64,000 nucleotides of DNA from an uncultured Bacteroidales bacterium (GTDB lineage Bacteria; Bacteroidota; Bacteroidia; Bacteroidales; CAIWKO01), in NCBI GenBank assembly GCA_903913285.1, contig CAIWKO010000060.1:124001-188000 (forward strand), read 5' to 3'. Positions within the stretch are counted from its first letter, which is position 1. Every line of letters begins with the position of its first letter. Of the stretch, positions 24,950 to 49,730 are shown one piece after another. Both the position numbers and the translations under genes were made by a program. The notes below the pieces were generated by a model. That model saw only the letters and a program-made list of their open reading frames with translations, had not been told where the DNA came from and did not search any database.

Positions 24950-25222
24950 ATTTGGATGTTACTTGGCATAATTTGAATGTTGCCTGTAATAATTTGAATG
25001 TTGCTCGCCATAATTTGAATGTTACTTGGCATAATTTGAATGTTACTTGGCATAATTTGAATGTTACTTGCCATAATTTGGATGTTAGGAGGCATAATTT
25101 GAATGTTGACTGTCATAATTTAAATGTTACTTGCCATAATTTGGATGTTAGTAGGCATAATTTGAATGTTGTGAGGCAAAATTTGAATGTTGCCTGTCAT
25201 AATTTGAATGTTATGATGCAAA
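24950..25222. repeat. 21-bp tandem repeat array, 13 copies
   Basis: Thirteen uninterrupted 21-bp units from 24950. Each has a nearly constant half, ATTTGAATGTT (occasionally ATTTGGATGTT), and a variable half such as acttggcata, gcctgtaata or aggaggcata. Two adjacent units (25013 and 25034) are identical. Because 21 is a multiple of 3, open frames with 7-residue repeats appear on both strands; I treat these as by-products. The array is the main content of the 678-bp gap between the TMTC-like gene and the convergent FAD oxidoreductase. The rest of the gap is AT-rich with no gene seen. Confidence 0.93.
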
Positions 25223-25500
25223 ATGCTGATAAATAGGTGTATAATTGCATTTCTTTACAAAAAAACTTTACAAAAAATATAAAAAAAGCTTTCCCTAAGC
25301 AATTCTATAAAAGTAATACGTTAAAAAAAAACGGTGTACCATATTAATGTATATTTCATCGACAGATAAAAAAGCAACATTTGTCTGTATCAATATCAAA
25401 AATCATTCAGAATTAATACATACACAAAAATTTCCTTCTTCCTTTTTTAGTTACTTTAAAAATAAAGTTAATTATTCAACTTCATTATTCAAAAAAAAAC

Positions 25501-33198: not shown

Positions 33199-35133
33199 AT
33201 GATAAATATAACATTACCGGATAATTCGGTAAGACAATACCCTGAAGGTGTAACCGGACACGAGATCGCATTAAGTATCAGCGAAGGACTGGCCCGTAAT
33301 GTTTTGGCAATTCAGGTGAATGATGTGATATGGGAATCAAACCGTCCCTTACTTTCCGATGCTAAGATAAAACTGCTCACATGGAATGATACTGAAGGAA
33401 AAGCAACTTTTTGGCATACATCGGCACATATTATGGCTGAGGCTATTGAAATGCTTTTCCCCGGTACAAAATTCGGAATTGGCCCTGATATCGAAAATGG
33501 TTTTTATTATGATATCGATATGGGTGAACGTATGCTCACCGAGTCAGATTTTAAAGCCATTGAAGATAAAATGATAGAACTTTCGAGAGAAAATCAACTT
33601 TTGGTTCGCAAAGAAATTTCTAAGCAAGATGCTATCGATTATTTTACCAAAAAAGGTGATGAATATAAACTTGAACTGATCAACGAACTCACCGATGGAG
33701 AAATAACACTATATGAAAGCGGTCGGTTTACTGATCTCTGCAGAGGTCCGCACATTCCAAATACAGGATTCATCAAAGCAGTTAAGATCATGAGTGTTGC
33801 CGGGGCATACTGGCGTGGCGATATTAAACGCAAACAACTTACACGCGTTTATGGCATCACTTTCCCAAAACAAAAAGACCTGCAGGATTATCTCGTTTTG
33901 CTTGAAGAAGCAAAAAAACGCGATCATCGCAGATTGGGAAAAGACCTTGAACTCTTCACGTTTTCGCAAAACGTTGGATTGGGATTGCCTTTGTGGCTGC
34001 CAAAAGGAACTGCCATACGCGAACGTTTGGAAGCATTCCTGAAAAAAGTGCAACGGGATGCCGGCTATGTTCAGGTGATGACTCCCCATATCGGCGATGT
34101 GAATTTGTATAAAACCTCAGGCCACTTTCAAAAATACGGTCAGGATTCGTTTCAGCCTATCTCAACACCTATCGAAGGCGAACAGTTTATGTTGAAACCA
34201 ATGAACTGCCCTCATCATTGCGAAATTTACAAATTCAAACCCCGCTCATACAAAGATCTTCCACTACGAATAGCCGAATTCGGCACTGTTTATCGCTATG
34301 AACAAAGCGGCGAATTACACGGGTTGACCCGCGTTAGAGGTTTTACACAAGATGACGCTCACATTTTCTGTACCCCCGATCAGGTTAAAGAAGAATTTGT
34401 TGGCGTTATTAATATCGTAATGATCATTTTCAAAGCTCTCGATTTTAAAGATTTTACAGCTCAAATTTCGCTGCGCGACCCTAATAATAAGGAAAAATAT
34501 ATCGGCAGCGACGAAAACTGGGATAAAGCCGAACAAGCTATCATTGACGTTACCAAAGAAAATGGTATCTATGCTGTGATAGAAATTGGTGAAGCTGCTT
34601 TTTACGGGCCAAAACTCGATTTTATGGTTCGCGATGCTATTGGCAGAAAATGGCAGTTGGGAACCATTCAGGTTGACTATAATCTCCCTGAACGTTTTGA
34701 ACTGGAATATATTGGCAACGACAATCAAAAGCACCGTCCGGTGATGATACATCGTGCACCTTTTGGTTCAATGGAACGCTTTGTGGCAGTTTTGATAGAG
34801 CATTGTGCCGGAAAATTCCCTCTGTGGCTTGCTCCTGAACAAGTTACTATTTTGCCAATCAGCGAGAAATTTGAAAATTATGCAAAAAAAGTTTCTCAAT
34901 TGCTAAATAATTACGATATTCGCAGCAAAATTGATAACCGTAACGAAAAAGCCGGTAAGAAAATTCGTGATGCCGAACTGGAGCGTATCCCTTATATGCT
35001 TATAGTTGGCGAGAAAGAAGAAGCTGAAGGAACTATTTCCGTTAGAAAACAAGGAACAGGCGATATTGGTTCATTTACCATAGAAGCTTTTTCGGCACTT
35101 ATCAATGATGAGATCAAAACAATGATGGAATAA
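33199..35133 (+). CDS. thrS: Threonine-tRNA ligase
   Basis: 644 residues from the ATG at 33199, the start of the TGS domain ([17 protein letters not shown]). An in-frame ATG at 33142 is inside the promoter. Domain order: TGS (1-60), the second editing-type domain with [10 protein letters not shown] and the Zn/editing residues, class II catalytic core (motif 1 near residue 270; [11 protein letters not shown]; motif 2 [18 protein letters not shown]; motif 3 [11 protein letters not shown]) and the anticodon-binding domain ([10 protein letters not shown] onwards). It charges tRNA-Thr and removes Ser. First gene of an operon with infC, rpmI and rplT, the same order as in many bacteria. Confidence 0.96.
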
Positions 35134-35156
35134 ATTAAATATTTTATTAACTAAAT

Positions 35157-35163
35157 AAGGAGG
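35157..35163 (+). promoter_or_regulatory. Strong Shine-Dalgarno sequence of infC
   Basis: AAGGAGG, 7 nt before the proposed AUA start at 35171. Full-length anti-Shine-Dalgarno matches are rare in Bacteroidota and are absent before the other translation genes here, so this one decides the start. Confidence 0.8.
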
Positions 35164-35170
35164 ATAAGCT

Positions 35171-35722
35171 ATAGCTACTAATACTAATTTCCAACGCGGA
35201 AGAGGATTTGTTAAAAAAGAAGACCTGCATAAAATAAACCAACGGATTTTAGCTCCGGTTGTTCGCGTTGTTGGCGAAGACATTCAAATGGGAATTTACC
35301 CGATCAAAGAAGCTTTAGCAATTGCTGAAGAACAAGGTTTAGACCTTGTTGAAATTTCGCCTACCGCAAATCCACCTGTTTGTAAAGTGGTTGATTACAA
35401 AAAATTCCTTTACGAACAAAAACGCAAGCAAAAAGAAATGAAAGCCAAAGCCGCAAAAGTGATCGTTAAAGAGATCAGGCTTGGACCCAACACCGATGAC
35501 CACGATTTTAATTTCAAATTAAAACATGCCATCAAGTTTTTGCAGGACGGATGTAAAGTAAAAGTAGATGTATTTTTCAGAGGTCGTTCAATTGTTTACA
35601 AAGAACAAGGCGAGATCATATTGTTGAAGTTCGCTCAGGAACTGATAGATTATGGCAAACCAGAACAATTGCCCCGACTCGAAGGAAAACGAATGATCAT
35701 GATAATGTCACCAAAAAAATAA
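35171..35722 (+). CDS. infC: Translation initiation factor IF-3 with a non-canonical AUA start codon
   Basis: 183 residues if translation starts at ATA 35171. The IF3 N-terminal domain ([37 protein letters not shown]) begins well upstream of the first ATG at 35288, and the frame is closed by TAA at 35165. The only codons between are GCT then ATA, and the ATA has a perfect Shine-Dalgarno 7 nt upstream. The C-terminal domain has [19 protein letters not shown]3 ejects wrong initiator/codon pairs; E. coli infC starts with AUU, and IF3 thereby represses its own synthesis. The same logic is inferred here. Starting at 35288 would remove 39 conserved residues. Confidence 0.92.
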
Positions 35723-35751
35723 TCAATAATCACACATAAACAATTTGTAAA

Positions 35752-35946
35752 ATGCCAAAAATGAAATCAATTTCCGGTGCTAAAAAAAGGTTAGACTTCA
35801 CAGGAACCGGGAAAATCAAAAGAAAGCACGCATACAAAAGTCACATTCTTACTAAAAAGTCCATTAAAAGGAAAAGAAATCTTACTTATTCTGCTACAGT
35901 AGATAAGACAGATGAAAAAAGAGTGAAACAAATGTTAGCTTGCTAA
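35752..35946 (+). CDS. rpmI: 50S ribosomal protein L35
   Basis: 64 residues, highly basic, with the L35 signatures [26 protein letters not shown] and KRKRNL. It is 29 bp after infC in the infC-rpmI-rplT order. Co-transcribed with its neighbours. Confidence 0.96.
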
Positions 35947-36024
35947 AAATTTAGTATTAACCTTGCACTTAGCATTCAAGTTCTCATATAAAGGGAGACG
36001 CTAAAGCAAAAAAAACAAACAATT

Positions 36025-36435: not shown

Positions 36436-36747
36436 TTATTTGCTCACGTTTCCGATCTTATCTTCTATAGATCTGATCTTATCATCCATCCTGTTTTCTT
36501 TTCCTTTGCGGATATCGAACTTTGCAATGGCAAACACTCTGCCGCAATCCATTTCGAGCTGACGATATGCTTTGCCAACCACAGTTAGTGCATCGTGCAT
36601 CTCCGAAACTTCAAACACCGTTCCCATCGGGGTGAGTTTATACGCGATCCCCGATTCTATCATCATTTTTATGATCCGGCTCACATAAGGGCTCACACTG
36701 TCGCCTTTATCGGTTGGGAACATCGAAAATTCTACAATTACTGACAT
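36436..36747 (-). CDS. MTH1187 family (YkoF-like) thiamine-binding protein
   Basis: 103 residues, the length of the MTH1187/DUF77 family, a ferredoxin-like fold that forms tetramers. Start MSVIVEFSMFPTDKG and the motifs GIAYKLTPMGTVFE and VGKAYRQLEMDCGRV are typical. The family is annotated as thiamine-binding by relation to YkoF; a cellular role is not established. Single gene with its own candidate promoter. Confidence 0.85.
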   Translation of the reverse strand: MSVIVEFSMFPTDKGDSVSPYVSRIIKMMIESGIAYKLTPMGTVFEVSEMHDALTVVGKAYRQLEMDCGRVFAIAKFDIRKGKENRMDDKIRSIEDKIGNVSK

Positions 36748-36774
36748 GGCTTTTGTTTTTTAATTATACCGCTG

Positions 36775-36782
36775 CAAAATTA
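36775..36782 (-). promoter_or_regulatory. Candidate -7 element for the MTH1187-type gene
   Basis: On the minus strand TAATTTTG, 27 bp upstream of the start. No -33 box at normal distance. Confidence 0.4.
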
Positions 36783-36856
36783 ATTCATCTTTACATCATA
36801 ACCCGATTATTTCAACTATAAAACTTATATCCTCCCAAAATCTCGCTCAAAATTAC

Positions 36857-36864
36857 TACTTTTG
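36857..36864 (+). promoter_or_regulatory. Candidate -7 element for the surE operon
   Basis: TACTTTTG followed by CA, 12 bp before the surE ATG, implying a very short leader. Confidence 0.45.
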
Positions 36865-36876
36865 CAAAAAAACTGA

Positions 36877-37644
36877 ATGGAAAAGCCTTTAATTCTGATA
36901 ACCAACGACGATAGTTATTCGGCTCCGGGCATTCGGTTTTTGATTACAGTTATGCGCCAGCTTGGCGATGTGGTGGTGGTGGCCCCCGACAAGCCCCAAT
37001 CGGGCATGGGACACGCTATAACGGTTCATACTCCCCTGCGCTTACAAAAACTTAGTTCGGAAAAGAATTATAAAGAATATTTTTGCAACGGCACCCCTGT
37101 CGACTGTGTTAAACTAGCCGTCGATAAAGTGTTGCACCGTAAACCCGACCTTTTGGTTTCGGGCATTAACCATGGCTCGAATGCTTCCGTAAACATCATT
37201 TATTCGGGAACCATGTCAGCGGTTATCGAAGGCGCTATGGGGCATATACCCTCTATAGGCTTTTCGCTCAACGACTATGCCTACGATGCCGACTTCAGTC
37301 ACACGGCTCCTTACATCAAAAGTATCTGTCAGAGTGTGCTCAACAACAAGCTTCCCGAAAGCATCTGCCTTAATGTCAACTTTCCATTGAACGACGGCAA
37401 GATCAAAGGAATTAAAATATGCCGTCAGGCTAATGCTTACTGGAAAGAAGAATTCAGCGCCCGCACCGACCCCCACGGACGCGATTATTACTGGATGAAA
37501 GGTGTGTTCGAAAACCCCGATGAAGGAAAAGATACCGATGTGTGGGCCATCGAAAACCATTATGTTTCTGTTGTTCCTGTTCAATACGACCTGACCGCCC
37601 ATACTGTTATTCCGCTCATTAAAAAATGGAAAATCGATGTTTAA
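36877..37644 (+). CDS. surE: 5'/3'-nucleotidase SurE
   Basis: 255 residues. The metal site is ITNDDSYSAPGI (Asp11, Asp12, Ser14) plus SGINHGSNAS (metal-binding Asn near residue 93). SurE is a cytosolic phosphatase of nucleoside monophosphates and short polyphosphate, linked to stress survival. The C-terminal half has the swapped hairpin region with YWMKG and DVWAIENHYVSVVPV. The stop overlaps the next small gene by 8 bp, and the operon continues through a DUF192 protein to lgt. Confidence 0.94.
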   Translation: MEKPLILITNDDSYSAPGIRFLITVMRQLGDVVVVAPDKPQSGMGHAITVHTPLRLQKLSSEKNYKEYFCNGTPVDCVKLAVDKVLHRKPDLLVSGINHGSNASVNIIYSGTMSAVIEGAMGHIPSIGFSLNDYAYDADFSHTAPYIKSICQSVLNNKLPESICLNVNFPLNDGKIKGIKICRQANAYWKEEFSARTDPHGRDYYWMKGVFENPDEGKDTDVWAIENHYVSVVPVQYDLTAHTVIPLIKKWKIDV

Positions 37645-37924
37645 ATTCCTGAAAAAAGATTCGTTCTGGCTCGGTTTGATAGTCGGCACGGTGCTGCCTC
37701 TGGTGGTGTTTGGCATTTTATATTTTATCAATGTCACCTTTCCGAATCCCGATACCGGCAAACGCATCTTCAAACTCTCAACCGTGGTGGTTTTGGGTAT
37801 CGTGCCAAACGCGCTCACGCTACGCTATTATCTTGTGAGCCTCAAAGCCGACCGCTCAGGGCGCGGCATCATGTTCATGACCTTCGTGTTGGCTATTATT
37901 TTCATGATCTTCTATCTGAACTAA
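37637..37924 (+). CDS. Small inner-membrane protein of unknown function
   Basis: 95 residues with three hydrophobic helices (WLGLIVGTVLPLVVFGILYF, a middle one around VVVLGIVPNALTL, and FMTFVLAIIFMIFYL at the C-terminus). It overlaps surE by 8 bp, and its stop is directly followed by the start of the DUF192 gene, so it is certainly part of the operon. In other Bacteroidota a short membrane protein also sits between surE and later genes; no function is known to me. Confidence 0.72.
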   Translation: MFKFLKKDSFWLGLIVGTVLPLVVFGILYFINVTFPNPDTGKRIFKLSTVVVLGIVPNALTLRYYLVSLKADRSGRGIMFMTFVLAIIFMIFYLN

Positions 37925-38470
37925 ATGGCTGCGAAAAATCAGGTACGGCGTTATATCATCATAGTTTTGATCGTGGTCATCACTATTGGATTGATAATTA
38001 TCGCCGTCAAAAAACCTGCCGAACGCTCCTACCGTAAAGAACAATTTACTGCCCAACCGCAACAAGTTGCCGAACCTAAATTCAGGTACGATGGCGACCT
38101 GATCTTTTCAAGCAACACCAAAGTGCTCAAGATCATCAGTATCGAAATTGCCCGAACCGACGCCACACGCGAACAGGGCCTGATGTATCGCAAAGCTATG
38201 CCCGATAGCTGCGGAATGCTCTTTATTTTCGACGAAATGCAACCCCTCGACTTCTGGATGAAGAACACCGCCTTGCCGCTCGACATCATTTATATCGACG
38301 ACAAGTTCTCTATCGTCAGCATCGCCAAAAACGCCGTTCCTTTTTCCGAAACCTCCATACCCTCGGGCAAAGATGCCATGTATGTGGTTGAGGTAAACGG
38401 GGGCTTTACCGATAAATATCATATCGTGAAAGGCAACACCATTTCGTACACCGCAAACAACTTACCATGA
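37925..38470 (+). CDS. DUF192 family protein, membrane-anchored
   Basis: 181 residues: one N-terminal transmembrane helix (residues ~8-27) and a DUF192 domain with the family motif R-x-x-GLMYRKAMPDSCGMLFIF followed by FWMKNTALPLDIIYID and PSGKDAMYVVEV. DUF192 proteins are small beta-barrels facing the periplasm, function unknown. ATG directly abuts the previous stop, and the last 4 bp overlap lgt (ATGA), so translational coupling is likely on both sides. Confidence 0.88.
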   Translation: MAAKNQVRRYIIIVLIVVITIGLIIIAVKKPAERSYRKEQFTAQPQQVAEPKFRYDGDLIFSSNTKVLKIISIEIARTDATREQGLMYRKAMPDSCGMLFIFDEMQPLDFWMKNTALPLDIIYIDDKFSIVSIAKNAVPFSETSIPSGKDAMYVVEVNGGFTDKYHIVKGNTISYTANNLP

Positions 38471-39285
38471 AACTTCTCGAGATCGTTTGGAACACCAATC
38501 CCGTGATGCATTTGGGCAGCCTCGAAGTGCGCTGGTATGGCCTGCTGTTCGCGCTGGGGTTTTTCCTGTCATACACCGTGCTGTATTTCGTCTTCAAAAA
38601 AGAGAAAGTTCCTTTTCGTTTGCTCGATTGGCTCACGGGCTATTTCTTTCTCGCCGTTTTGGTAGGTGCACGCCTCGGCCATTGCTTCTTCTACGAATGG
38701 GACTATTACAAAAACCATCTCTCCGAAATATTCGAGGTTTGGAAAGGCGGGCTGGCAAGCCACGGAGCTGCCATTGCCATCGTCATCGTGCTCTTCATCT
38801 ATGTGAGGCAGTTCAAGGTAAACCTTTGGTGGCTGTTCGACAGGGTGGCCATCGTCATTCCCATCGCCGCCGCCTTCGTGCGCCTGGGCAACCTGATGAA
38901 CTCCGAGATATACGGCCATGTAACTTCCATGCCCTGGGGGTTTGTGTACATGCGCGACAAAGCAGCCGGCCTGCTTCCGCGCCATCCCACCGAACTCTAC
39001 GAAGCTATCAGCTATCTTGCTATAACCGCCTTGCTGCTCATCCTCTACCGTAAGAAAAAGGCCGTCATCCGCCCGGGTTTATTTGTAGGGCTGTTTCTCA
39101 CCATCATGTTTTCCGCCCGTTTCCTCATCGAGTTTTTTAAAGAAGTGCAGGAAGATTTCGAACGCCACATGCTGCTCGATCTGGGCCAATGGTTCAGCAT
39201 ACCCTTTATACTGCTCGGCATCTATTTTATTTATCACAGCATTGTGACGGACAAAATACCGGAAGCGCCTGTGGGGAGAAAATAG
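38467..39285 (+). CDS. lgt: Prolipoprotein diacylglyceryl transferase
   Basis: 272 residues, seven transmembrane helices. Lgt signature residues: His in GGLASHGAA (equivalent of E. coli His103), the Lgt box FVRLGNLMNSEIYG (Arg143 equivalent) and SARFLIEFFKE (Arg239 equivalent). Lgt transfers diacylglycerol from phosphatidylglycerol to the lipobox Cys, the first step of lipoprotein maturation, and so acts on the lipoproteins predicted at 17045 and 17643. Last gene of the surE operon. The block 36877-39285 is visibly richer in G+C than its flanks. Confidence 0.95.
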   Translation: MKLLEIVWNTNPVMHLGSLEVRWYGLLFALGFFLSYTVLYFVFKKEKVPFRLLDWLTGYFFLAVLVGARLGHCFFYEWDYYKNHLSEIFEVWKGGLASHGAAIAIVIVLFIYVRQFKVNLWWLFDRVAIVIPIAAAFVRLGNLMNSEIYGHVTSMPWGFVYMRDKAAGLLPRHPTELYEAISYLAITALLLILYRKKKAVIRPGLFVGLFLTIMFSARFLIEFFKEVQEDFERHMLLDLGQWFSIPFILLGIYFIYHSIVTDKIPEAPVGRK

Positions 39286-39334: not shown

Positions 39335-39500
39335 GGGCGCCCCCTCCTTCGTCGGGCCAGGCTGTCCGCTCATAGTCCTCGCGCCGCTTGTGTTTTTATT
39401 CTTTTGAATCAGCTCATTATTTCCAACTTTTGTCCTTTTCAAACTCTTCGGGTTGGCGGCACTGCGGGCTATCCGCTACCATCCTTGGCGCGGGGGCAAA
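39335..39500. repeat. GC-rich intergenic repeat-like element
   Basis: A GC-rich stretch in an AT-rich gap with no gene. It opens with GGGCGCCCCCTCC and closes with GGCGCGGGGGC, so short inverted ends (GCCCCC/GGGGGC) are present. Inside are two imperfect direct copies of a ~27-nt segment, GGCTGTCCGCTcatagtcct at 39361 and GGCTATCCGCTaccatcctt at 39467. It resembles dispersed palindromic elements I have seen in Bacteroidota intergenic regions; it does not code for a transposase. The rest of the 347-bp gap (39286-39632) holds only a candidate promoter. Confidence 0.5.
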
Positions 39501-39595
39501 CAGCCTTCCATTTAATCAACTTCACATCGCCTATCAATCATTCTTACCATTTAATTAAAAAAACAAATAATTCAACTTTAAAATCACATTATGCC

Positions 39596-39603
39596 TATAT
39601 TTG
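39596..39603 (+). promoter_or_regulatory. Candidate -7 promoter element
   Basis: TATATTTG, 29 bp before the ATG at 39633. It lies just after the ATG at 39591, arguing for the later start. Confidence 0.4.
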
Positions 39604-39632
39604 TCCAAAATAGTGCAAATAATATTATTAAA

Positions 39633-40535
39633 ATGAAAAAAAATCTTGTTCTAATTTTTATTCTAATTAATTCAACAGCTTTTTGTCAAAGTTATTCATC
39701 CCATTTTTCAAAACAGGATTATGATAGTTCTAAAAATTTTGTTGGTCCTAATTTAGCCGCATTAAAATATATTGGGCAAGAATTCTATCTCCCTAAATCC
39801 CGATGGAGTACAACTGTTCAATTTGTAAAAGATTTTAATAAGAGTGCTTATGAAAAGGATAATGTCTATAAATGCGATAGATTTTGGAATCCATTAAAAA
39901 CCGAAATTGAAGATAGATATTATGATGTTTTAACATTGGAAAAGTCATATAATTCCGAAGATATTTTCCTAAAATTAGTAAATAAATCAAATAATGATAC
40001 TGTTTATTATCGGTACAAGGCAATTGATGCTTCCGATTTTCCTTTTATTGTTTCAGGATTTTATATTAAACAAAAGCAAAAATTAATTGGCCAGAAATTT
40101 GTTTTTGATAATTATATTACTGAGAGATTGAACAAAAGTATTTCGACAGATAATTTTAAATTAGGCCAAATAATGACGGTTTCTGATTTAATAATTGATA
40201 CTGTCCATGGCAGGTTGAATGTAATTTTAGAAAATGATCTTAAAAATAATGTGCCTTATGCATATGATTTAATTTTTTCTGGAAAAATCTTTGGTAGAGT
40301 GTATTCAAAAGAAGAAGCTGAAGATTATAAAAAAGATTTTGGGAATTATTATTTTGATTTAGTATTAAAGCATGAATTAAAAATAGGAATGAATTCAAGA
40401 ATGGCTAAATTAATAGAAGGTTTTCCTAATAAAATCAACAGAACCGAAACACAGAATACTATATATGAGCAATGGGTTTACGATGAAAAATATTTGTATT
40501 TTGAAAATGGTAAATTAACCACTATACAAGATTAA
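39633..40535 (+). CDS. Secreted orphan protein
   Basis: 300 residues from the ATG at 39633, which gives a signal peptide (MKKNLVLIFILINSTAFCQ). The mature protein is Lys/Asn/Asp/Tyr-rich, reflecting strongly AT-biased codons. Motifs of note: FYLPKSRWS, FIVSGFYIKQKQKLIGQKFVF, and a C-terminal KIGMNSRMAKLIEGFPNK segment followed by YEQWVYDEKYLYFENGKL, which resembles the SmpA/BamE-like signature (small motif, then W-Y, then strand with NGK). Not recognised as a named family. It converges on the candidate RiPP operon. Confidence 0.7.
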   Translation: MKKNLVLIFILINSTAFCQSYSSHFSKQDYDSSKNFVGPNLAALKYIGQEFYLPKSRWSTTVQFVKDFNKSAYEKDNVYKCDRFWNPLKTEIEDRYYDVLTLEKSYNSEDIFLKLVNKSNNDTVYYRYKAIDASDFPFIVSGFYIKQKQKLIGQKFVFDNYITERLNKSISTDNFKLGQIMTVSDLIIDTVHGRLNVILENDLKNNVPYAYDLIFSGKIFGRVYSKEEAEDYKKDFGNYYFDLVLKHELKIGMNSRMAKLIEGFPNKINRTETQNTIYEQWVYDEKYLYFENGKLTTIQD

Positions 40536-40553
40536 AAACTTATATTAGGTTTT

Positions 40554-40591
40554 GGCATCTCAGATGCCCCATTCTTTTAGCATAAAAGAAT
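40554..40591. terminator. Two adjacent hairpins between convergent genes
   Basis: GGCATCT-c-AGATGCC (40554-40568), then ATTCTTTT-agcat-AAAAGAAT (40571-40591). The second gives short U-runs in both directions, so the pair may end both the secreted orphan gene and the RiPP-like operon. Confidence 0.5.
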
Positions 40592-40678
40592 AGATATGAT
40601 TGAGAAAATACCTCTTCTTCCCTACCAATTATTTAAAAAATCCCAAACTATTGTGATACTAATATATCTGAAATTTCT

Positions 40679-40906
40679 TTAGAAAAGCATCGTAGAGCAT
40701 TTATTACAATTGCAGCTACATCTGCTTATACGTTGACATGACATGTTAACAACAATACCATCTTTCACCTCAAAACTATGTTGATCATAAAATCCCATGT
40801 CAACTTCTTTTTCAATGAATTCTAATTGTTCAACATCAATGTCATTTTGATTTTCACATGATGTCTTCACTTCTTTGATTGTTTCTTGAACTAAATGTGT
40901 TTGCAT
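40679..40906 (-). CDS. Small Cys-rich peptide, candidate RiPP precursor
   Basis: 75 residues. The first ~53 are acidic and helix-prone (VQETIKEVKTSCENQND, VEQLEFIEKEVDMGFY), like a leader peptide. They are followed by GIVVNMSC and a C-terminal segment of ~20 residues with five Cys (pattern S-C-x5-C-x-C-x-C-x2-C) ending in STMLF. It lies directly downstream of a radical SAM/SPASM maturase on the same strand; such Cys-rich tails are typical substrates for thioether formation. Its ATG lies inside the 3' end of the maturase gene (53-bp overlap, different frame). No Shine-Dalgarno. Precursor status is inference from size, composition and context; start could be shorter (Met37 or Met54). Confidence 0.6.
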   Translation of the reverse strand: MQTHLVQETIKEVKTSCENQNDIDVEQLEFIEKEVDMGFYDQHSFEVKDGIVVNMSCQRISRCSCNCNKCSTMLF

Positions 40907-42188
40907 ACTTTGAATTTTTATTATTGTTTGTAATCTTATTATTTAGAATGTTTAATCCAATATTTTGAGTTGATGTACAATTAAGTTTATCTGTTAGTCT
41001 TCTGTCAGGACAGTCTCCTGAACAATGATATTTACAAAAACAATCCGAACACTCACTATAATTAAAAACAACCATATTTCTAATAGACTCTATTTTTTTA
41101 GAATCAAGTATCAATTCATCCGAATTTATGTCGTATTTACCAAAGACAAAATCCTCAGGTGCTCCATCTCTATGGCAGGCATAGATTATTCCATTGACAT
41201 CTACCGTCCAACTTGGAATACCAACATTTGTACAAAATACAGGCCTTATTAAATCATAATCAGTCGTTGCAGAGTTTATTATTGAAATGGGTTTTCCTTT
41301 TATGTAATTTAGCAAATGAACAATTTTATCGCTAAACACTTTTTTATCTGGTGGTTTAACTTGAACGCAAATTTTACCTCTTCCGAAAGGATTCAAATTT
41401 TCTAATCCAATCGATCGATTTGGAAAGTTTTCTGCAAAAAAATCTATAGTTTGATCTAGAAAATTTATACTATAATCCGAAACAGTAGCCCTAAAAGCAT
41501 AATTAAAATTAGAATTACGAAAAAATTCTGCTGTTTCGTAAACTTTGGAAAAGGATTCTTCTCCATTTTTCATAGGTCTATGTAAATTTTGAATATGAGC
41601 AGGCCCATCAAATGAAAGCGATACATCATAAAATTCTTTCACAATGAATTTTCTTACATGGTCATTATATACTCCATTAGTCGCCATCGAAAGTTTAAAT
41701 TTAATATTCCTTTTAGAGGCATATTCTTTCACTTTACTAACAGCAAATTCAAGTTTTTTAAAATCAAATGTAGGTTCTCCACCACCATTAAAAGATATTT
41801 GAACAGTTTCTGTATCATTAATAAATTCAAAATACTTTTTAATTATTGCTTCAATCATTTTATATGACATCGTCACCAATTTGTGAGACTCTCCAGCAGA
41901 AGCATGACAATAGATACAACGCAAATTGCAATTATCAGTTATCGCTAAAGATAGTTCGGGATTAGTCTTATGTAAGTTGTCAATAATACCATTCATGTCT
42001 AGTAATGGTCTTTTAATCAGCATGTCTAAAAATTGCTGTTTAATAGTAGAATCTTCTCTTGATTTAATTTTTTCAATAACATCATTCTTCGCTAACGCTA
42101 AATAACTTCTTAAAGGAGCATAAATTATTTTTTTAGATAAATCTTCTTCAAAGGTTAAGAAAAATAATTCTTCTTTATCAATAATCAT
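40854..42188 (-). CDS. Radical SAM/SPASM domain protein, candidate peptide maturase
   Basis: 444 residues. The [4Fe-4S]-SAM motif is CNLRCIYC (Cys87, 91, 94), with the SAM-binding GGEP motif in FNGGGEPTF and the later SLSFDGP. The C-terminal SPASM region has ACHRDG, then CSDC, YHCSGDC and a last Cys in LNCTST, giving the CX2CX5CX3C pattern that binds two auxiliary clusters in peptide maturases and anaerobic sulfatase maturases. The N-terminal ~75 residues include IIYAPLRSYLALA, a start seen in SPASM maturases. No sulfatase is nearby; a Cys-rich peptide gene follows. The last ~35 residues (Asn/Lys/Ser-rich) look unstructured. Strongly AT-rich codons. Confidence 0.87.
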   Translation of the reverse strand: MIIDKEELFFLTFEEDLSKKIIYAPLRSYLALAKNDVIEKIKSREDSTIKQQFLDMLIKRPLLDMNGIIDNLHKTNPELSLAITDNCNLRCIYCHASAGESHKLVTMSYKMIEAIIKKYFEFINDTETVQISFNGGGEPTFDFKKLEFAVSKVKEYASKRNIKFKLSMATNGVYNDHVRKFIVKEFYDVSLSFDGPAHIQNLHRPMKNGEESFSKVYETAEFFRNSNFNYAFRATVSDYSINFLDQTIDFFAENFPNRSIGLENLNPFGRGKICVQVKPPDKKVFSDKIVHLLNYIKGKPISIINSATTDYDLIRPVFCTNVGIPSWTVDVNGIIYACHRDGAPEDFVFGKYDINSDELILDSKKIESIRNMVVFNYSECSDCFCKYHCSGDCPDRRLTDKLNCTSTQNIGLNILNNKITNNNKNSKYANTFSSRNNQRSEDIM

Positions 42189-42197
42189 GTTGCAATT

Positions 42198-42896
42198 TTA
42201 TTTTGTAATTAAATTTAGACTTTTTTGTAAATCAACCAATTTACCATTTCGTATTAGTTTTAGTATTCCATTTATTATACCTTCATAGAATTCTGTTGTT
42301 ATCGTTTCCTTATCAATTTGATCGTCTCCATCATCATCTATTTTTAAACTTTTTTTATTCCCTTTCCTATTTTCATTATTATTGATTAATAGCTCTATAA
42401 CTGCATTAATAATAATTTGTCCTTCTATTAATTCATTACTAATAATCTTCTCTGTATTTTCCAATCTTATTCTTTCAGTTTCTTCCTTATACCTTTCATT
42501 TTTGAGTTTCATTTCTTCTAATTTTTCAATCAATATTTTATCTGTAATTTTTTTTGTTCGAGTCGTAATATTTAAAAGCTCGAGAATTTTTATGATGAAT
42601 TTAGAAGTTGCTTCAATAGGTTCGCCGCTACCTTCTAAGCTAAAACTTCCAGGGGATGCCATTTTTATCTTATGTATTCTCAGTTTTGCACTTTCGTCCG
42701 CATAATCTGATAGGTTATTTAGTACTTTAGTAATGGAAAGTTTATTTGATGCAAAAGAATCTGGAATTCCCTTTTCATATACTTTAATGATTTCAATCGC
42801 CAAAAAAACATTATAAATTTTTGAAATACTAGCAAGACAGGTGTTCCATTCCTCAACCGTCCAATCTCCTGATGTTTTAAAAGTTAAAATTTCCAT
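42198..42896 (-). CDS. Uncharacterised protein upstream of the radical SAM gene
   Basis: 232 residues, no recognised domain. The N-terminal half is mixed alpha/beta and ends in KIKMASPGSFSLEGSGEPI, an xxSPGxxxLxG motif I associate with small hypothetical proteins of bacterial conflict or signalling gene sets, without being able to test it. Residues ~120-155 form a charged coiled coil (KLEEMKLKNERYKEETERI). The C-terminal third is helical with an acidic DDDGDD patch. Unusually for this window it has a strong Shine-Dalgarno (42903-42908). It ends 9 bp before the maturase start, so the two are surely co-transcribed. Confidence 0.7.
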   Translation of the reverse strand: MEILTFKTSGDWTVEEWNTCLASISKIYNVFLAIEIIKVYEKGIPDSFASNKLSITKVLNNLSDYADESAKLRIHKIKMASPGSFSLEGSGEPIEATSKFIIKILELLNITTRTKKITDKILIEKLEEMKLKNERYKEETERIRLENTEKIISNELIEGQIIINAVIELLINNNENRKGNKKSLKIDDDGDDQIDKETITTEFYEGIINGILKLIRNGKLVDLQKSLNLITK

Positions 42897-42902
42897 TCAT
42901 AA

Positions 42903-42908
42903 CCTCCT
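42903..42908 (-). promoter_or_regulatory. Strong Shine-Dalgarno sequence before the 232-residue unknown gene
   Basis: On the minus strand AGGAGG, 6 nt before the ATG at 42896. Apart from infC it is the only full match seen in front of a gene here, and may point to a different genomic origin. Confidence 0.6.
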
Positions 42909-42933
42909 ATTGATTCATTCTTATATTTTATTT

Positions 42934-43248
42934 CTAATTTAATTTATTTTCAGTAAGTAATATAGTAACAGAATCAGGATTAATTTCTATAATAGTACAA
43001 ACAATAATGCGTTCTACTGTCTTTACTTTTATTAATTGCCCACTTTTCATACCATTACCATAATTATCTCTCGATTCAATAATCGGCCCCAATGAAGAAT
43101 TAACTTGTACTGTAATTACCTCAATTTCCTTATCATAAGCATCATACTTAATATCTCCAATAGTAATAATAATATCGCCATCATTAATCATCCAATAAGA
43201 ATTCTCTTTAACTTCATTTTGACCATGATTTATAAAAGTTTTTTCCAT
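42934..43248 (-). CDS. Small uncharacterised beta-rich protein
   Basis: 104 residues with no signal peptide or membrane helix. It alternates hydrophobic and polar residues (DGDIIITIGDIKYDAY, EIEVITVQVNSSLG, LIKVKTVERIIVCTIIEI), suggesting a small beta barrel. It sits second in the minus-strand operon, 37 bp before the next gene. A role as carrier, immunity or recognition protein for the peptide system is possible but unsupported by any motif. Confidence 0.62.
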   Translation of the reverse strand: MEKTFINHGQNEVKENSYWMINDGDIIITIGDIKYDAYDKEIEVITVQVNSSLGPIIESRDNYGNGMKSGQLIKVKTVERIIVCTIIEINPDSVTILLTENKLN

Positions 43249-43292
43249 TTCATTGTTAATATTTTATCATTAATATAATGCAATATTCAAAT

Positions 43293-43892
43293 TTAATCTG
43301 ACAAATTCTCATCCGCAAATTTCATTAACTGTTCAATTTCTCTTCTACAATCACCATAATTAAAAAACTCCCAAATATTCTTTTCGTTATTATAAATTAA
43401 TCGAATATTGTTGGCTTCATTAATATTTGGCCAATTGTCAGGTGTTTTAAAAGCGGTTTCTAATTTTTCAGAATTAACAAAGTCAATTGCTTTTTTAATT
43501 ATTTTATCCATTTCCCCTTCCTGAATACCCCCTTCAAATACGATTTCCGCAATTTTTTCTTTATTTATTAGTTTTAAGCTAATGCTTTTGGGGGTATCAT
43601 CATTTTTTCCTTTTTCTTCAAGTTTATTTATTGGTATTTTTAATAAACTGTTCCATAAGAATTTCAATCCATCCCAAAATAATCCATCGGTTATAATTTT
43701 CAAAGCATGTAGCTGTAAAACAACAACAATATCAAACATTTCATTGCCCGAAAAATTAAGCCATTCAGATTCTTCTTCAATTTCTAACTGAAATTTCAAA
43801 TTCGTCTTGGTGTCAAGTTCAAGATTTTTAAATCCCTGAATGATATCATTAGGTAAATAATATTGAAAAATAATTTTTATTTCTTCTCGCAT
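43293..43892 (-). CDS. Uncharacterised protein, first gene of the RiPP-like operon
   Basis: 199 residues, no recognised domain. It begins MREEIKIIFQYYLPNDII and has an amphipathic segment GLFWDGLKFLWNSLLKIPINKL near the middle, which could be a membrane-associated helix, followed by ISLKLINKEKIAEIVFEGG and a C-terminal helix ending QLMKFADENL. AT-rich like the rest of the operon. The orientation and 44-bp gap suggest co-transcription with the genes down to the Cys-rich peptide. Confidence 0.62.
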   Translation of the reverse strand: MREEIKIIFQYYLPNDIIQGFKNLELDTKTNLKFQLEIEEESEWLNFSGNEMFDIVVVLQLHALKIITDGLFWDGLKFLWNSLLKIPINKLEEKGKNDDTPKSISLKLINKEKIAEIVFEGGIQEGEMDKIIKKAIDFVNSEKLETAFKTPDNWPNINEANNIRLIYNNEKNIWEFFNYGDCRREIEQLMKFADENLSD

Positions 43893-43965
43893 TTAGTTTT
43901 CAATTTAAAATTCATTTTACTTTATTTCCAACTACAAATATATAATTATTCGTTTAGTATCATAA

Positions 43966-44002
43966 AAAAACTCCCAAAACTTTTCAAATTCCGGGAGTTT
44001 TT
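43966..44002 (-). terminator. Rho-independent terminator upstream of the RiPP-like operon
   Basis: AAAAACTCCC (43966-43975) pairs with GGGAGTTTTT (43993-44002). On the minus strand it ends in a seven-base U-run, 20 bp past the stop of the gene at 44023-44997, and so separates that gene from the RiPP-like operon. Confidence 0.78.
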
Positions 44003-45395: not shown

Positions 45396-45876
45396 GCAAT
45401 CCCGGAACAAAAAATAGCAATCCCTAAAGCAAAATTTGTAATCGCGGAAGGAAAATTAGTAATCGCGGAAGCTCTCTAAGTAAAATCATAAGCCCTCTTT
45501 GCATTCTCATAAGGTCTCTTTGCAACCCCGAAAGCCCTCTTAGCAATCGCGGAAGGCAAATTTGCAATCGGGTATGACAGATTTGTAACCGAGAAAGGCC
45601 TCTTTTTGAAATCGGAACAAAACCATGCAATCGCGGAAGCTTTCTTAGTGTCCGCGCAAGCTGAATAAGCAACCGCGGAAGCTCACTCGGCCACCGGACA
45701 AGACTCCGTGCTTCCCCGGAAGCTCGCCATGCAACCGCGCAACCCAAAATAGTAATCGCGGAAGCTCGCCACGCAACCGCGGAAGGTCGCTTTGCAAGCT
45801 TTTTTCTGCCAATATGTCACCGCAGCCAAAAATAGCATTCCCGCAACCAAAAGTACCATTCCCGAAGCAAACCAAT
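45396..45876. repeat. Degenerate 21-bp tandem repeat array, about 23 copies
   Basis: About 23 units of 21 bp (two of 20 bp) with a consensus close to GCAATCGCGGAAGctcnctt. The core CGCGGAAG is kept in about a third of units; others drift to CCCCGAAAG, CCCGGAAC or CTCATAAG. It fills the gap up to ~110 bp before the DUF1003 gene. It is the longest and most diverged array in the window and the only GC-rich one. A minus-strand open frame across it with Leu/Arg heptads is a by-product of the 21-bp period. Confidence 0.85.
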
Positions 45877-45983
45877 AAAAAACCTCTCTGTGACCCTCTG
45901 TTCTCTATGTCTCCGTGGTTCAATTTTTCCAATCGCAAATCCAAAAAGATTATTAATTTTACACAAACTAACCACCAATCATC

Positions 45984-46415
45984 ATGGAAAACCATAACTC
46001 AAAAAACTGGCATCAAAAACATCACGAATCATTAAGCTTCGGGGCACATCTGGCCGATACGGTGGCCAAAGGCATGGGCTCGTGGCGCTTCATCATTATC
46101 CAATCCTTGTTCGTTATAATTTGGATGGGTTTTAATGTAGTTGGTTTTATCAACCATTGGGATACTTACCCCTTTATATTGCTCAACCTGGTGTTCTCGA
46201 CGCAGGCAGCTTACGCCGCCCCCATCATCATGATGGCCCAAAACCGCCAGAGCGACCGCGACCGCATTCAGGCCCAGGCCGACTATCAAACCAACATCGA
46301 TGCAAAACGCGAAATAGAAGCTTTGGCCATACTCCTAAAATCGCTCGAAGTCGAAAAACTCGATAAGATCATTGCCATGATACAGGAAATGAAAACCAAT
46401 GCCCCGAAATCATGA
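45984..46415 (+). CDS. DUF1003 family membrane protein
   Basis: 143 residues. N-terminal soluble part (ESLSFGAHLADTVAKGMGSW), two transmembrane helices (residues ~38-57 and ~65-85) with the family motif W-x-GFNVVGF...WDTYPFILLNLVFSTQAAYAAPIIMMAQNRQ split over the second helix, then a cytosolic coiled coil (DIDAKREIEALA-like). DUF1003 proteins are of unknown function. The stop overlaps the next gene start by 4 bp (ATGA). Confidence 0.9.
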   Translation: MENHNSKNWHQKHHESLSFGAHLADTVAKGMGSWRFIIIQSLFVIIWMGFNVVGFINHWDTYPFILLNLVFSTQAAYAAPIIMMAQNRQSDRDRIQAQADYQTNIDAKREIEALAILLKSLEVEKLDKIIAMIQEMKTNAPKS

Positions 46416-47479
46416 AAAGCATACGGACACTTCTGCCGGCGATACTGTTCGCCCTAACGGGAAGCCTGCAGGCTCAGAAACTTCCCACCATCGGCATGAC
46501 ACCCGCCGAGTTCAACAAAATTGTGCCCGACATTTTGCCTTCCGAATTCATCTACAACCGCAATTTATATCTAAACGAAAAACTACAATCCATTGACGGT
46601 CGATGGTCATTCGGTTTTTACAACAACAGTCTGAATTCGGCATCTTTCAGCAACGAGGTTCGTTTAAACTCTGAAGCCGAATTCACCACGTGGGTGAACA
46701 GTGCGGAACTCATCATTGCCGATTACACCAAAACTTATGGCGAGCCAACATCATACCAACAGGGAACCAATAAATGGGTCGACCGCAACACGGTTGAATA
46801 CGAAAACAAAATAGGGAAACGCGAAGTATTTGAAGAAGCCGTATGGCAAACCAAAACCATGAAAATAAAACTCATTTGCGATTTCCGCAGCAACTATTAT
46901 GAAGAATTTCAGGAAGGCCTGCCCAACGGCCCAAACGAATGGTACAGCTATTGTTTCATTATAAAATATTCGTATCTATACGAAAACAAGCTGCCTGCCG
47001 AAGCGGTAGGACGATTTTATCTGGGCGAGAATGTAGACGACTTTGCCAAAGCATTTCCTTCACTATTTCCGAACGGAGTGGGCCTCACAGGACAGTGGGG
47101 ACGAAAAGAAAAGATCTATGGCCTCGACGGAGGCTGGGCCTATAATTTCGATAGCGGAAAACTCGAATGGATGCTTTACGACAACTATATACACGAAATT
47201 AACGGAAAGAACTTCGATAAATGCCTTTCGGCTACCAAAAACCTGATAGAGGATTACACCAAGCTATTTGGCAAACCCGACACCACTATGATAGGCGACA
47301 CTACCTTTAAGGACCCCGCCTTGAAACGCCACTGGGGCTATGATGTGATGGAGGTGCGCTGGAAAGACTATAAGGGCGAGAAACTAAAAGTTGAATTCAC
47401 CTTTATGGGTGGCAAGGGCGAATATGCATTTTTGGTGAAGATCGCCTTTTTCGAAAAAAATTATCCGTATTATGATTAG
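46412..47479 (+). CDS. Secreted protein of unknown function
   Basis: 355 residues with a signal peptide (MKSIRTLLPAILFALTGSLQAQ). Two related halves are visible: each has a short helix motif with FxKxxPxxxP (EFNKIVPDILP near residue 28; FAKAFPSLFPNG near 210), a strand pair with G-W-x-F/Y-N-F/D (DGRWSFGFYNN; DGGWAYNFDSGKLEW) and a later DYTKxxGxP (ADYTKTYGEP; EDYTKLFGKP). So it is an internal duplication. It overlaps the DUF1003 gene by 4 bp and its stop runs into the heptamer array. No family recognised. Confidence 0.75.
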   Translation: MKSIRTLLPAILFALTGSLQAQKLPTIGMTPAEFNKIVPDILPSEFIYNRNLYLNEKLQSIDGRWSFGFYNNSLNSASFSNEVRLNSEAEFTTWVNSAELIIADYTKTYGEPTSYQQGTNKWVDRNTVEYENKIGKREVFEEAVWQTKTMKIKLICDFRSNYYEEFQEGLPNGPNEWYSYCFIIKYSYLYENKLPAEAVGRFYLGENVDDFAKAFPSLFPNGVGLTGQWGRKEKIYGLDGGWAYNFDSGKLEWMLYDNYIHEINGKNFDKCLSATKNLIEDYTKLFGKPDTTMIGDTTFKDPALKRHWGYDVMEVRWKDYKGEKLKVEFTFMGGKGEYAFLVKIAFFEKNYPYYD

Positions 47480-47554
47480 GTATTTGGTATTTGGTATTTG
47501 GTATTTGGTATTTGGTATTTGGTATTTGGTATTTGGTATATGGTATCTGGTACC
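47479..47554. repeat. Heptanucleotide tandem repeat (GGTATTT)n
   Basis: Eight perfect copies of GGTATTT from 47479 to 47534, then GGTATAT, GGTATCT and GGTACC. The first base is the last base of the preceding stop codon. It lies between convergent genes and is a likely length-variable locus. Confidence 0.93.
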
Positions 47555-47585
47555 ATTGACCTTATACTATATACCATAGACCTTC

Positions 47586-49730
47586 TTACTTTCTTGCTTC
47601 GAGCATCAGGTTGAGCATCTTGATGGCTGCTTCGGGGATCTTGGTACCCGGTCCGAAGATGGCCATAGCGCCCGCTTTATAGAGAAAATCATAGTCCTGC
47701 GACGGGATGACTCCGCCCACGATCACCATGATATCTTCCCTGCCGAGTTTTTTCAGTTCTCCGATAACTTGCGGAACTAAAGTTTTATGACCGGCAGCTA
47801 GACTCGAAACACCCAGCACATGCACATCATTTTCAACAGCTTGTTTGGCAGCTTCGGCAGGAGTTTGGAACAAAGGACCTATATCCACATCAAAGCCGAT
47901 ATCGGCATAGCCCGTTGCTACTACTTTGGCGCCACGGTCGTGACCATCCTGTCCCATTTTTGCTATCATGATGCGAGGCCTGCGGCCTTCTGCAGCAGCA
48001 AACTTGTCAGCCAGTTCGCATGCTTTTTTGTAGCTTTCGTCGTCTCTCGATTCAGACGAATAAACTCCCGAAATTGAACGTATCACAGCTTTGTACCTCC
48101 CAAATATTTTTTCGCATGCGGATGAAATCTCACCCAGGGTGGCGCGTTTGCGTGTGGCATCCACTGCCAGAGCGAGCAAATTGCCCGTGCCGCTTTCGCA
48201 TGCTTTGGTTATTGCATCTAATGCCTGTTGAACTTCCTGATTATTGCGGTTTGCTTTGAGTTGATCGAGCCTTTTGATCTGCGAATCGCGCACGGCTGTG
48301 TTATCAACTTCCAGTGTATCGATGGGCGCTTCTTTGTCGAGGCGAAATTTGTTGACACCCACAATGGTATCTTTTCCCGAATCGATGCGTGCCTGTTTGC
48401 GTGCAGCAGCTTCTTCGATCCTCATCTTAGGTAAACCCGTTTCGATGGCTTTTGCCATGCCGCCCAGTTCTTCTACTTCCTGAATGAGCGCCCAGGCTTT
48501 ATGAGCCAGTTCGTTGGTGAGGTATTCCACATAATATGAGCCTGCCCAGGGGTCGACCACTTTGCAGATGTTGGTTTCTTCCTGCAGATAAATTTGAGTG
48601 TTGCGTGCGATACGAGCCGAAAAATCGGTTGGCAAAGCGATGGCTTCGTCGAGGGCGTTGGTATGCAACGATTGTGTGTGACCCAAAGCAGCGCCCAAAG
48701 CTTCGACACAGGTGCGGGCTATATTGTTGAAGGGGTCTTGTTCGGTGAGGCTCCATCCCGAAGTTTGGCAGTGTGTGCGCAGTGCGAGTGATTTGGGATT
48801 TTTCGGATTAAAAGTCTTCACCAACTTGGCCCACAACATACGAGCGGCGCGCAGTTTGGCAATTTCCATAAAATGATTCATGCCTACACCCCAGAAGAAC
48901 GACAAACGCGGAGCAAAGGAATCGATGTCCATGCCTGCATTTACACCGGCTCTCAGATATTCAAGTCCATCGGCAAGCGTGTAGGCCAATTCGATATCGG
49001 CGGTTGCACCGGCTTCCTGCATGTGATAGCCGCTGATGCTGATAGAATTGAACTTCGGCATATTCTTCGAAGTGAATTCGAAGATGTCGGCAATGATCTT
49101 CATCGAAGGCAAAGGAGGATAGATGTATGTGTTGCGCACCATAAACTCTTTCAGAATGTCGTTTTGGATGGTACCGCTGAGTTTTTCCATGGGTACGCCC
49201 TGTTCTTCGGCAGCCACGATATAGAATGCCAGAACAGGCAAAACGGCTCCATTCATGGTCATAGAAACCGACATTTTATCGAGTGGAATACTGTCGAAGA
49301 GTATCTTCATATCGAGAATGGAATCGATGGCAACTCCTGCTTTACCAACATCACCCACGACACGTTCGTGGTCGGAGTCGTATCCGCGATGCGTAGCCAG
49401 ATCGAAAGCCACGGATAAACCTTTTTGTCCGGCAGCCAGATTGCGTCGGTAAAATGCATTCGATTCTTCGGCCGTTGAAAACCCAGCATACTGACGAACG
49501 GTCCAGGGTTGCATGACATACATGGTGGAATAGGGTCCTCTCAAAAAAGGAGCTATACCTGCGGCATAGTTGAGATGTTCCATCCCGGCAAGGTCGTTTG
49601 CGGTGTAAACAGGCTTCAGGGGAATTAACTCCGGTGTAAGCATGTTTTGAGTCGCCTTATTTTCGGTCTTAACCTCTCCACCTGCTTTTGGAGTAGGTTT
49701 GTAGTCGATATTTTTAAAATCCGGTCTCAT
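47586..49730 (-). CDS. mutB: Methylmalonyl-CoA mutase large subunit
   Basis: 714 residues. N-terminal TIM-barrel with [23 protein letters not shown] (substrate-binding Tyr/Arg region), [13 protein letters not shown] and [13 protein letters not shown]-terminal cobalamin domain with the DxHxxG motif in [15 protein letters not shown] near residue 605. It converts L-methylmalonyl-CoA and succinyl-CoA, the key B12 step of propionate metabolism. The small subunit lies 62 bp upstream; that spacer holds short GATTAGT-type repeats. Confidence 0.96.

Follow-up and report, generated by a model that had tools for sequence, protein, structure and literature searches.

A conserved radical SAM/SPASM maturase and Cys-rich peptide pair in a low-GC island of an uncultured Bacteroidales bacterium

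We analysed a gene cluster in a 64,000-nucleotide stretch of contig CAIWKO010000060.1 from an uncultured Bacteroidales bacterium, referred to below as the window. Scanning the window for open reading frames (ORFs) placed five of them at this cluster. All lie on the minus strand; successive gaps measure 44, 37 and 9 nucleotides, and the 3' end of a radical SAM/SPASM maturase gene then overlaps the ORF of a 75-residue peptide by 53 nucleotides. The five same-strand genes with short gaps described in the initial annotation are thus borne out by the ORF coordinates. The features are the following.

40679-40906, minus strand: ORF of a predicted 75-residue precursor peptide with an acidic leader and a Cys-rich C-terminus, CQRISRCSCNCNKCS
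40703-40738, minus strand: predicted core motif C-x-R-I-x-x-C-x-C-[ND]-C-[ND], from peptide comparison and the window motif scan
40854-42188, minus strand: 444-residue radical SAM/SPASM maturase (PF04055), with orthologues in L002, L003 and L030
42198-42896, minus strand: 232-residue protein with no assigned function, its stop 9 nucleotides ahead of the maturase
42934-43248, minus strand: ORF of a 104-residue protein with no assigned function
43293-43892, minus strand: ORF of a 199-residue protein with no assigned function
39500-44000, no strand: low-GC island of 26-31% G+C, containing the cluster plus one plus-strand gene at 39591-40535

The maturase and the peptide recur together in other genomes, and the pair is a real, rare module for a ribosomally synthesised and post-translationally modified peptide (RiPP), ordinary in kind, with a peptide family outside all NCBIfam models. 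Residue counts show that the 75-residue peptide has an acidic N-terminal part (13 Asp and Glu against 4 Lys and Arg in 56 residues) and five cysteines, 57, 63, 65, 67 and 70, in the final 20 residues. A scan of genome contigs with the maturase returned nine loci, comprising two orthologues and seven relatives at 27-29% identity; the orthologues, both near full-length matches, are from metagenome-assembled genomes of Chthoniobacterales (L002, 44% identity) and Treponema (L003, 41%). A viral-contig scan added a third maturase of 38% identity, on an IMG/VR contig with phage genes (L030); taken together, the identities of these orthologues run from 38 to 45%. In all four loci, window included, a small peptide gene abuts the maturase: at 8304-8525 in L002 and 2829-2999 in L003, where it overlaps the maturase by 14 and 4 nucleotides respectively, and at 6777-6965 in L030, where gene order is changed and the peptide lies 35 nucleotides upstream of the maturase with AGGAGG preceding its ATG, rather than overlapping the maturase end as in the other three. 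C57, R59, I60, C63, C65 and C67 are invariant in all four peptides, with [ND] at positions 66 and 68 and differing codons, and three of the four share a leader motif, E[VA][ED][MV]GF[FY][ED]. The four maturases form one clade, with support of 100/99 in one tree and 100/100 in a tree of 38 maturases. The arrangement of peptide and maturase is more than chance, because the pattern CxRIxxCxC[ND]C[ND] occurs once in the window and in none of 100 shuffles of it, and a matching peptide is present in each of the three other loci. We therefore observe at these loci what generally marks a RiPP module, a conserved small precursor gene beside a maturase, in a patchy spread that takes in Verrucomicrobiota, Spirochaetota, the phylum of the window and one virus-classed contig.

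The enzyme has a radical SAM triad, CNLRCIYC (Cys 87, 91 and 94), and a SPASM region made up of C319-x13-G-x4-C338, C380-x2-C383-x5-C389-x3-C393 and C404, with an additional C385; C319, C338, C380, C383, C389, C393 and C404 make up the seven SPASM cysteines. Both motifs first noticed, CNLRCIYC and CX2CX5CX3C, are present, and with CX3CX2C and the full SPASM cysteine set the enzyme is in its general kind a radical SAM/SPASM peptide maturase. Pfam returned the radical SAM domain PF04055 (E 3.4e-13) and a marginal Fer4_12 match over the same region. Among the best 25 of 65 NCBIfam models matched at E up to 1, the first was PapB (NF047865), whose 130.1 bits fall short of its cut-off of 340; next came the SCIFF maturase TIGR03974 (104.8 bits against 425), the Nif11 maturase model (102.7 against 518.7) and the sulfatase maturase TIGR03942 (92.6 against 349.45). 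PapB was the top model for all four maturases (L002 116.5, L003 134.5 and L030 105.8 bits), and membership of PapB was rejected for the window enzyme and, at 105.8-134.5 bits, for the orthologues likewise; membership of SCIFF was rejected on the score above. A profile of the four maturases matched six distinct solved sequences in the PDB, led by 5wgg, the SCIFF maturase CteB, at 119.7 bits and then by the anaerobic sulfatase maturase 4k37 at 83.3 bits. With PapB and 5wgg scoring higher, identity as a sulfatase maturase, an enzyme that is likewise of the radical SAM/SPASM kind, was rejected, and no sulfatase model matched the seven window proteins scanned with Pfam and NCBIfam. Viperin identity was rejected as well, the PADLOC viperin models reaching at most 42.3 bits and being confined to the shared radical SAM core. 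The two outcomes that the initial annotation had named as fatal to its proposal, a peptide not conserved beside homologous maturases and a maturase grouping with those of sulfatases, have therefore not occurred. Its suggestion that the class may be undescribed is borne out in part: the peptide matched no NCBIfam model and gave Pfam matches below cut-off, but the enzyme is of known kind.

The setting of the pair suggests horizontal mobility. Taken in 1-kb windows, G+C drops to 26-31% for starts at 39,500-43,000, against 43-51% for starts at 36,500-38,500 and 45,500-49,000, with values of 35-42% at 34,000-36,000 and between 43,500 and 45,000. In a profile search at E 1e-20 no such maturase was found in the three genomes of the same genus, all of which keep the surE-lgt block and have other genes at the site after lgt; the window genes that follow lgt were not found in the stretches examined after lgt of these congeners. 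The contig of L030, virus-classed and 51 kb long, carries an SU10-type portal, Prim-Pol, a helicase, a tail-fibre-like gene and restriction genes, and the pair is placed there between the tail-fibre-like gene and Mrr plus type I-like methylase and restriction genes. The L002 contig has an integrase about 14.5 kb from the pair and a Dam/ParB-type gene, and the L003 pair adjoins glycine hydroxymethyltransferase and hydratase genes and a divergent helix-turn-helix gene.

We favour, with a probability of about 0.6, the reading that the pair is a stand-alone, horizontally moving two-gene RiPP module in which the enzyme binds the leader of the peptide and links the cysteines of its core, likely as thioethers. 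The radical SAM/SPASM enzyme would recognise the acidic leader, perhaps through the motif shared by three of the peptides, and would connect cysteines of the core CxRIxxCxC[ND]C[ND] with residues close by. Thioether bonds of the kind formed by PapB and SCIFF maturases would be the most probable links, and [ND]66, [ND]68 or S/N61 are candidate acceptors. Cross-linking appears the most likely change because the nearest model makes thioethers and the partner peptide has four invariant cysteines. The matured product may act in the cell or rely on host enzymes, and it might play a part in conflicts with other cells or with phages. Known membership of the pair stands at four, and this weighs against the reading, as do several features of the sequences: the L030 peptide has no GFF leader motif; no protease or exporter was found among the neighbours scanned, nor a transporter among the seven window proteins scanned; and no match to PqqD or to a RiPP recognition element was found by sequence in 25 maturases or in the N-terminus of the window maturase. 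To these is added that no Asp or Glu follows Cys57, so that the Cys-to-Asp/Glu chemistry of PapB could not apply unchanged; Asn stands at +4 from Cys17, and the peptide has no Cys-X3-Asp/Glu motif. With Asp and Glu missing from the window core, Asn, Ser or some other residue would have to serve as acceptor.

Among known systems, a radical SAM/SPASM maturase with a Cys-containing peptide is what the pair has in common with PapB/PapA, a ranthipeptide system, and a SPASM maturase with a small Cys-rich peptide is likewise the arrangement of SCIFF systems. Ranthipeptides are defined as a class by a thioether that runs from Cys to a non-alpha carbon. SCIFF differs in its peptide motif, and the best stretches of the matches start at residue 76-78. 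In contrast to the window core, PapA uses CX3D/E motifs, and PapB tolerates a spacing n of 0 to 6 in Cys-Xn-Asp, according to PMC9413430. PMC10352776 describes nine selected Bacteroidales RiPP clusters, all but two with a peptidase-containing ATP-binding cassette transporter (PCAT) and most with precursors that have a GG-type leader; the window peptide differs in having no GG.

The initial annotation took all five genes as one peptide-modification system, a proposal of which the maturase-precursor pair has stood and the remainder has not. That the upstream three are dedicated RiPP partners, for immunity, export or target recognition, is unlikely, although the genes share a strand and short gaps and are carried together by one low-GC stretch. 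None of the genes for the 104-, 199- and 232-residue proteins was found by tblastn beside the other three pairs (L002, L003 and L030) or in the longer stretches L079-L081, where the L003 contig, at only 6,061 bases, limits the neighbourhood seen; therefore the five genes do not make up a conserved system, co-occurrence of all five genes was not seen, and the conserved part is two genes. For the 104- and 199-residue proteins, tblastn of the collected loci matched only the window's own genome, and further searches found no relatives. The first 100 residues of the 232-residue protein are remotely like one 198-residue protein (33% over 100 residues) in a genome of the same order (G238), and that protein reappears, its neighbours unchanged, in an IMG/VR contig; with one DUF5675 match, the region of this relative seems phage-like. 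No relative of the 232-residue protein was found in plasmids, phages, the PDB or the first viral scan, apart from a few PDB matches at E of at least 0.25, and PADLOC gave a weak Cas6 match of 14.6 bits. None of the three upstream proteins matched an NCBIfam model, any Pfam matches being below cut-off, and they are probably local accessories or island cargo.

It is rather doubtful that the enzyme makes another change at CxRIxxCxC[ND]C, such as a C-C link, epimerisation or a metal-binding or cofactor-like product. No peptide-maturase model reached its cut-off, the window core is without Asp or Glu, and an invariant Arg-Ile lies near the first cysteine, all of which would suit such a change; the closest model and the closest solved structure are nevertheless thioether-forming maturases, and the four cysteines are invariant. 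Just as doubtful, to our minds, is that the module serves as defence cargo of a phage or host, with the matured peptide acting inside the cell against a phage or rival element. The position of the L030 pair beside restriction genes on a contig with a portal, the integrase on the L002 contig and the lack of an exporter among the neighbours scanned are consistent with this. In contrast, PADLOC yielded only the viperin models that share the radical SAM core and the weak Cas6 match of the 232-residue protein, and the L003 pair has the metabolic and helix-turn-helix neighbours noted above. Five cysteines in 20 residues also resemble metal-binding peptides, but that the small ORF is an unmodified peptide of this sort, with the maturase acting on something else, is very improbable given that peptide and maturase stay together in four of four loci, with gene order changed in L030.

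The stand-alone two-gene module may belong to a wider group. We checked the neighbours of the next-best maturases, at 230 bits and below, in 20 loci. Frames under 260 residues with at least two CxC[ND] units were found at seven of them (L004, L005, L006, L008, L010, L068 and L071), an example being CTCNPFCTCEATCSCNPQ in L004. A scan of 94 records without a length limit added L009 and L067, for nine of the 20, as well as the plasmid loci L092 (Chlorohelix) and L093 (Methylocystis); it also returned the four family loci, nine motif-recruited contigs (L040, L043-L049 and L053) and a single window frame, 29651-29818, antisense inside a large gene. The distant maturases beside CxC[ND] sequences are from Clostridia, Chloroflexota, Methylocystis and the phylum of L002, and some of the sequences are exactly CxCNC: tails in L092 such as AVCVCNCVAG carry the same C-x-C-N-C as the RCSCNCN of the window peptide. 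That proteins or tails with the unit C-x-C-[ND](-C) adjoin more distant maturases would make this unit the likely site of modification. The related loci (L004-L006, L008, L009, L010, L067, L068, L071, L092 and L093) resemble the window in having related radical SAM/SPASM maturases next to CxC[ND], the SPASM motif being of CFC type in most, and differ in that their substrates are longer, most with several repeats, and their maturases are 21-29% identical to that of the window where aligned.

In the 38-maturase tree the window clade falls on one side of a split (93/95) together with all 14 maturases from CxC-repeat loci and five others. The labels in this tree are by locus, so that the second and third L009 maturases and the second L010 maturase each share a substrate locus. 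Evidence on the other side is that the branches at the split are long and five of its 23 rows have no CxC repeat locus, that G787, with single-CxCN frames, falls across the split, and that 11 of the 20 related loci have no frame holding two CxC[ND] units; for eight of these 11 the flanks were about 1.5 kb, L066 and L069 overlap, and L064 and L068 share a contig. As such, the link between the window family and the CxC group is likely and not proved. On our best reading the pair belongs to an unnamed CxC[ND] group as a compact branch that moves horizontally. More tentatively, and at somewhat less than even odds, this group would represent an undescribed radical SAM/SPASM modification of C-x-C-[ND](-C), directed elsewhere at repeat peptides and at C-terminal tails of Tat-type (twin-arginine translocation), propeller-like proteins in several phyla, and here taken up by phages and islands as a self-contained effector-making module. 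Among the five longer substrates or frames that were scanned, L009 scored above the Tat-signal cut-off (24.0 against 16.7) and L092:7678-8856 just under it (16.1). Matches to propeller or repeat models, all below cut-off, were seen for this L092 protein, whose annotation is WD40, and for L009 and L067, and L068 likewise has a WD40 match below cut-off.

If these relationships hold, the motif C-x-C-[ND](-C) links an orphan two-gene module to maturase neighbours in Clostridia, Chloroflexota and a methanotroph, so that a substrate as small as 56 to 75 residues could serve to test a single chemistry. If cross-linked, the window peptide would need an acceptor other than that of PapB, and the presence of a RiPP module alongside phage structural genes would widen the known range of phage cargo. 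Among the papers listed from the open-access full-text literature, none dealt with this motif or with the CxC group, and five motif strings were unmatched there.

The genome sets in which the rarity of the family was assessed overlap, and scoring was confined to the top candidates of a first look. A single-protein search of the window's own phylum at 1e-10 matched 33 of 296 genomes (126.9 bits being the highest score other than the window's own), and a profile search of relatives at 1e-20 matched three of 59 (best other 105.9 bits). At 1e-25 there were matches in two of 296 genomes in the phylum of L003 (the other one 181.8 bits) and in seven of 288 in that of L002 (best other 226 bits), and at 1e-40 in one of 274 in the family of L003, one of 213 in the order of L002 and one of 360 in the window's own class. 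Above 230 bits, each genome set held the already known orthologue only. Matches to the maturase in plasmids (86 records) and phages (24 records) were all below 60% identity, the best reaching about 28% among the matches listed (the best 20 in each case), and the L002 maturase matched five plasmid records at below 30% identity. An alignment search of viral contigs with the peptide gave no confirmed match; the L003 peptide had no match in plasmids, and its 12 phage records had E of at least 7 among the matches listed, six of the best 10 being annotated as porin or OmpD. Candidate further members from two viral-contig motif scans were rejected: in the first, 18 of 19 stretches had neither a motif ORF of at least 25 residues nor a CX3CX2C ORF above 250 residues, the 19th (L041) being the L030 contig itself, and in the second none of 10 had a maturase-like ORF, L097 having a 36-residue frame over the motif.

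Several further observations concern the loci compared here. In a genome of the same order as the window, five neighbouring paralogous radical SAM/SPASM maturases lie together (G325:C58:66821-73913; L032 and L034-L037). Downstream of the L002 peptide, 8756-9445 holds three near-identical copies of a 24-nucleotide repeat, AGTTGCGTAGGGAACCGGAGCAAC, and two weaker copies. The ORF after the L030 maturase (8139-9155) has no match in Pfam, PHROG or NCBIfam; it has a DDVYD stretch reminiscent of isoprenoid synthases. Clostridial frames rich in C-x-C-[NDEQ]-x-x repeats follow the maturase at about 7.8-8.7 kb in L004, L005, L006, L008 and L010, and in L006 the preceding gene has a Tat-signal match of 16.9 bits and a weak PqqD match. 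Tandem 34-residue frames with one CxCN each (L069:977-1081 and 1297-1401) lie upstream of two maturases. CxC[ND]C occurs in the C-terminal part of four proteins near radical SAM/SPASM maturases (L092:8933-10201, L092:7678-8856, L009:8358-9710 and L067:2-1471), three of which have an HYW[YH]PN ending, and NCBIfam has no model for these tails. Within the window, scans for promoters, terminators and TANNTTTG gave chance level only, type IX secretion sorting domains, a mark of Bacteroidota, were above cut-off in three of five proteins scanned, and low-complexity repetitive frames of HNLNV and LPRL type lie at 24952-25236 and 45424-45995.

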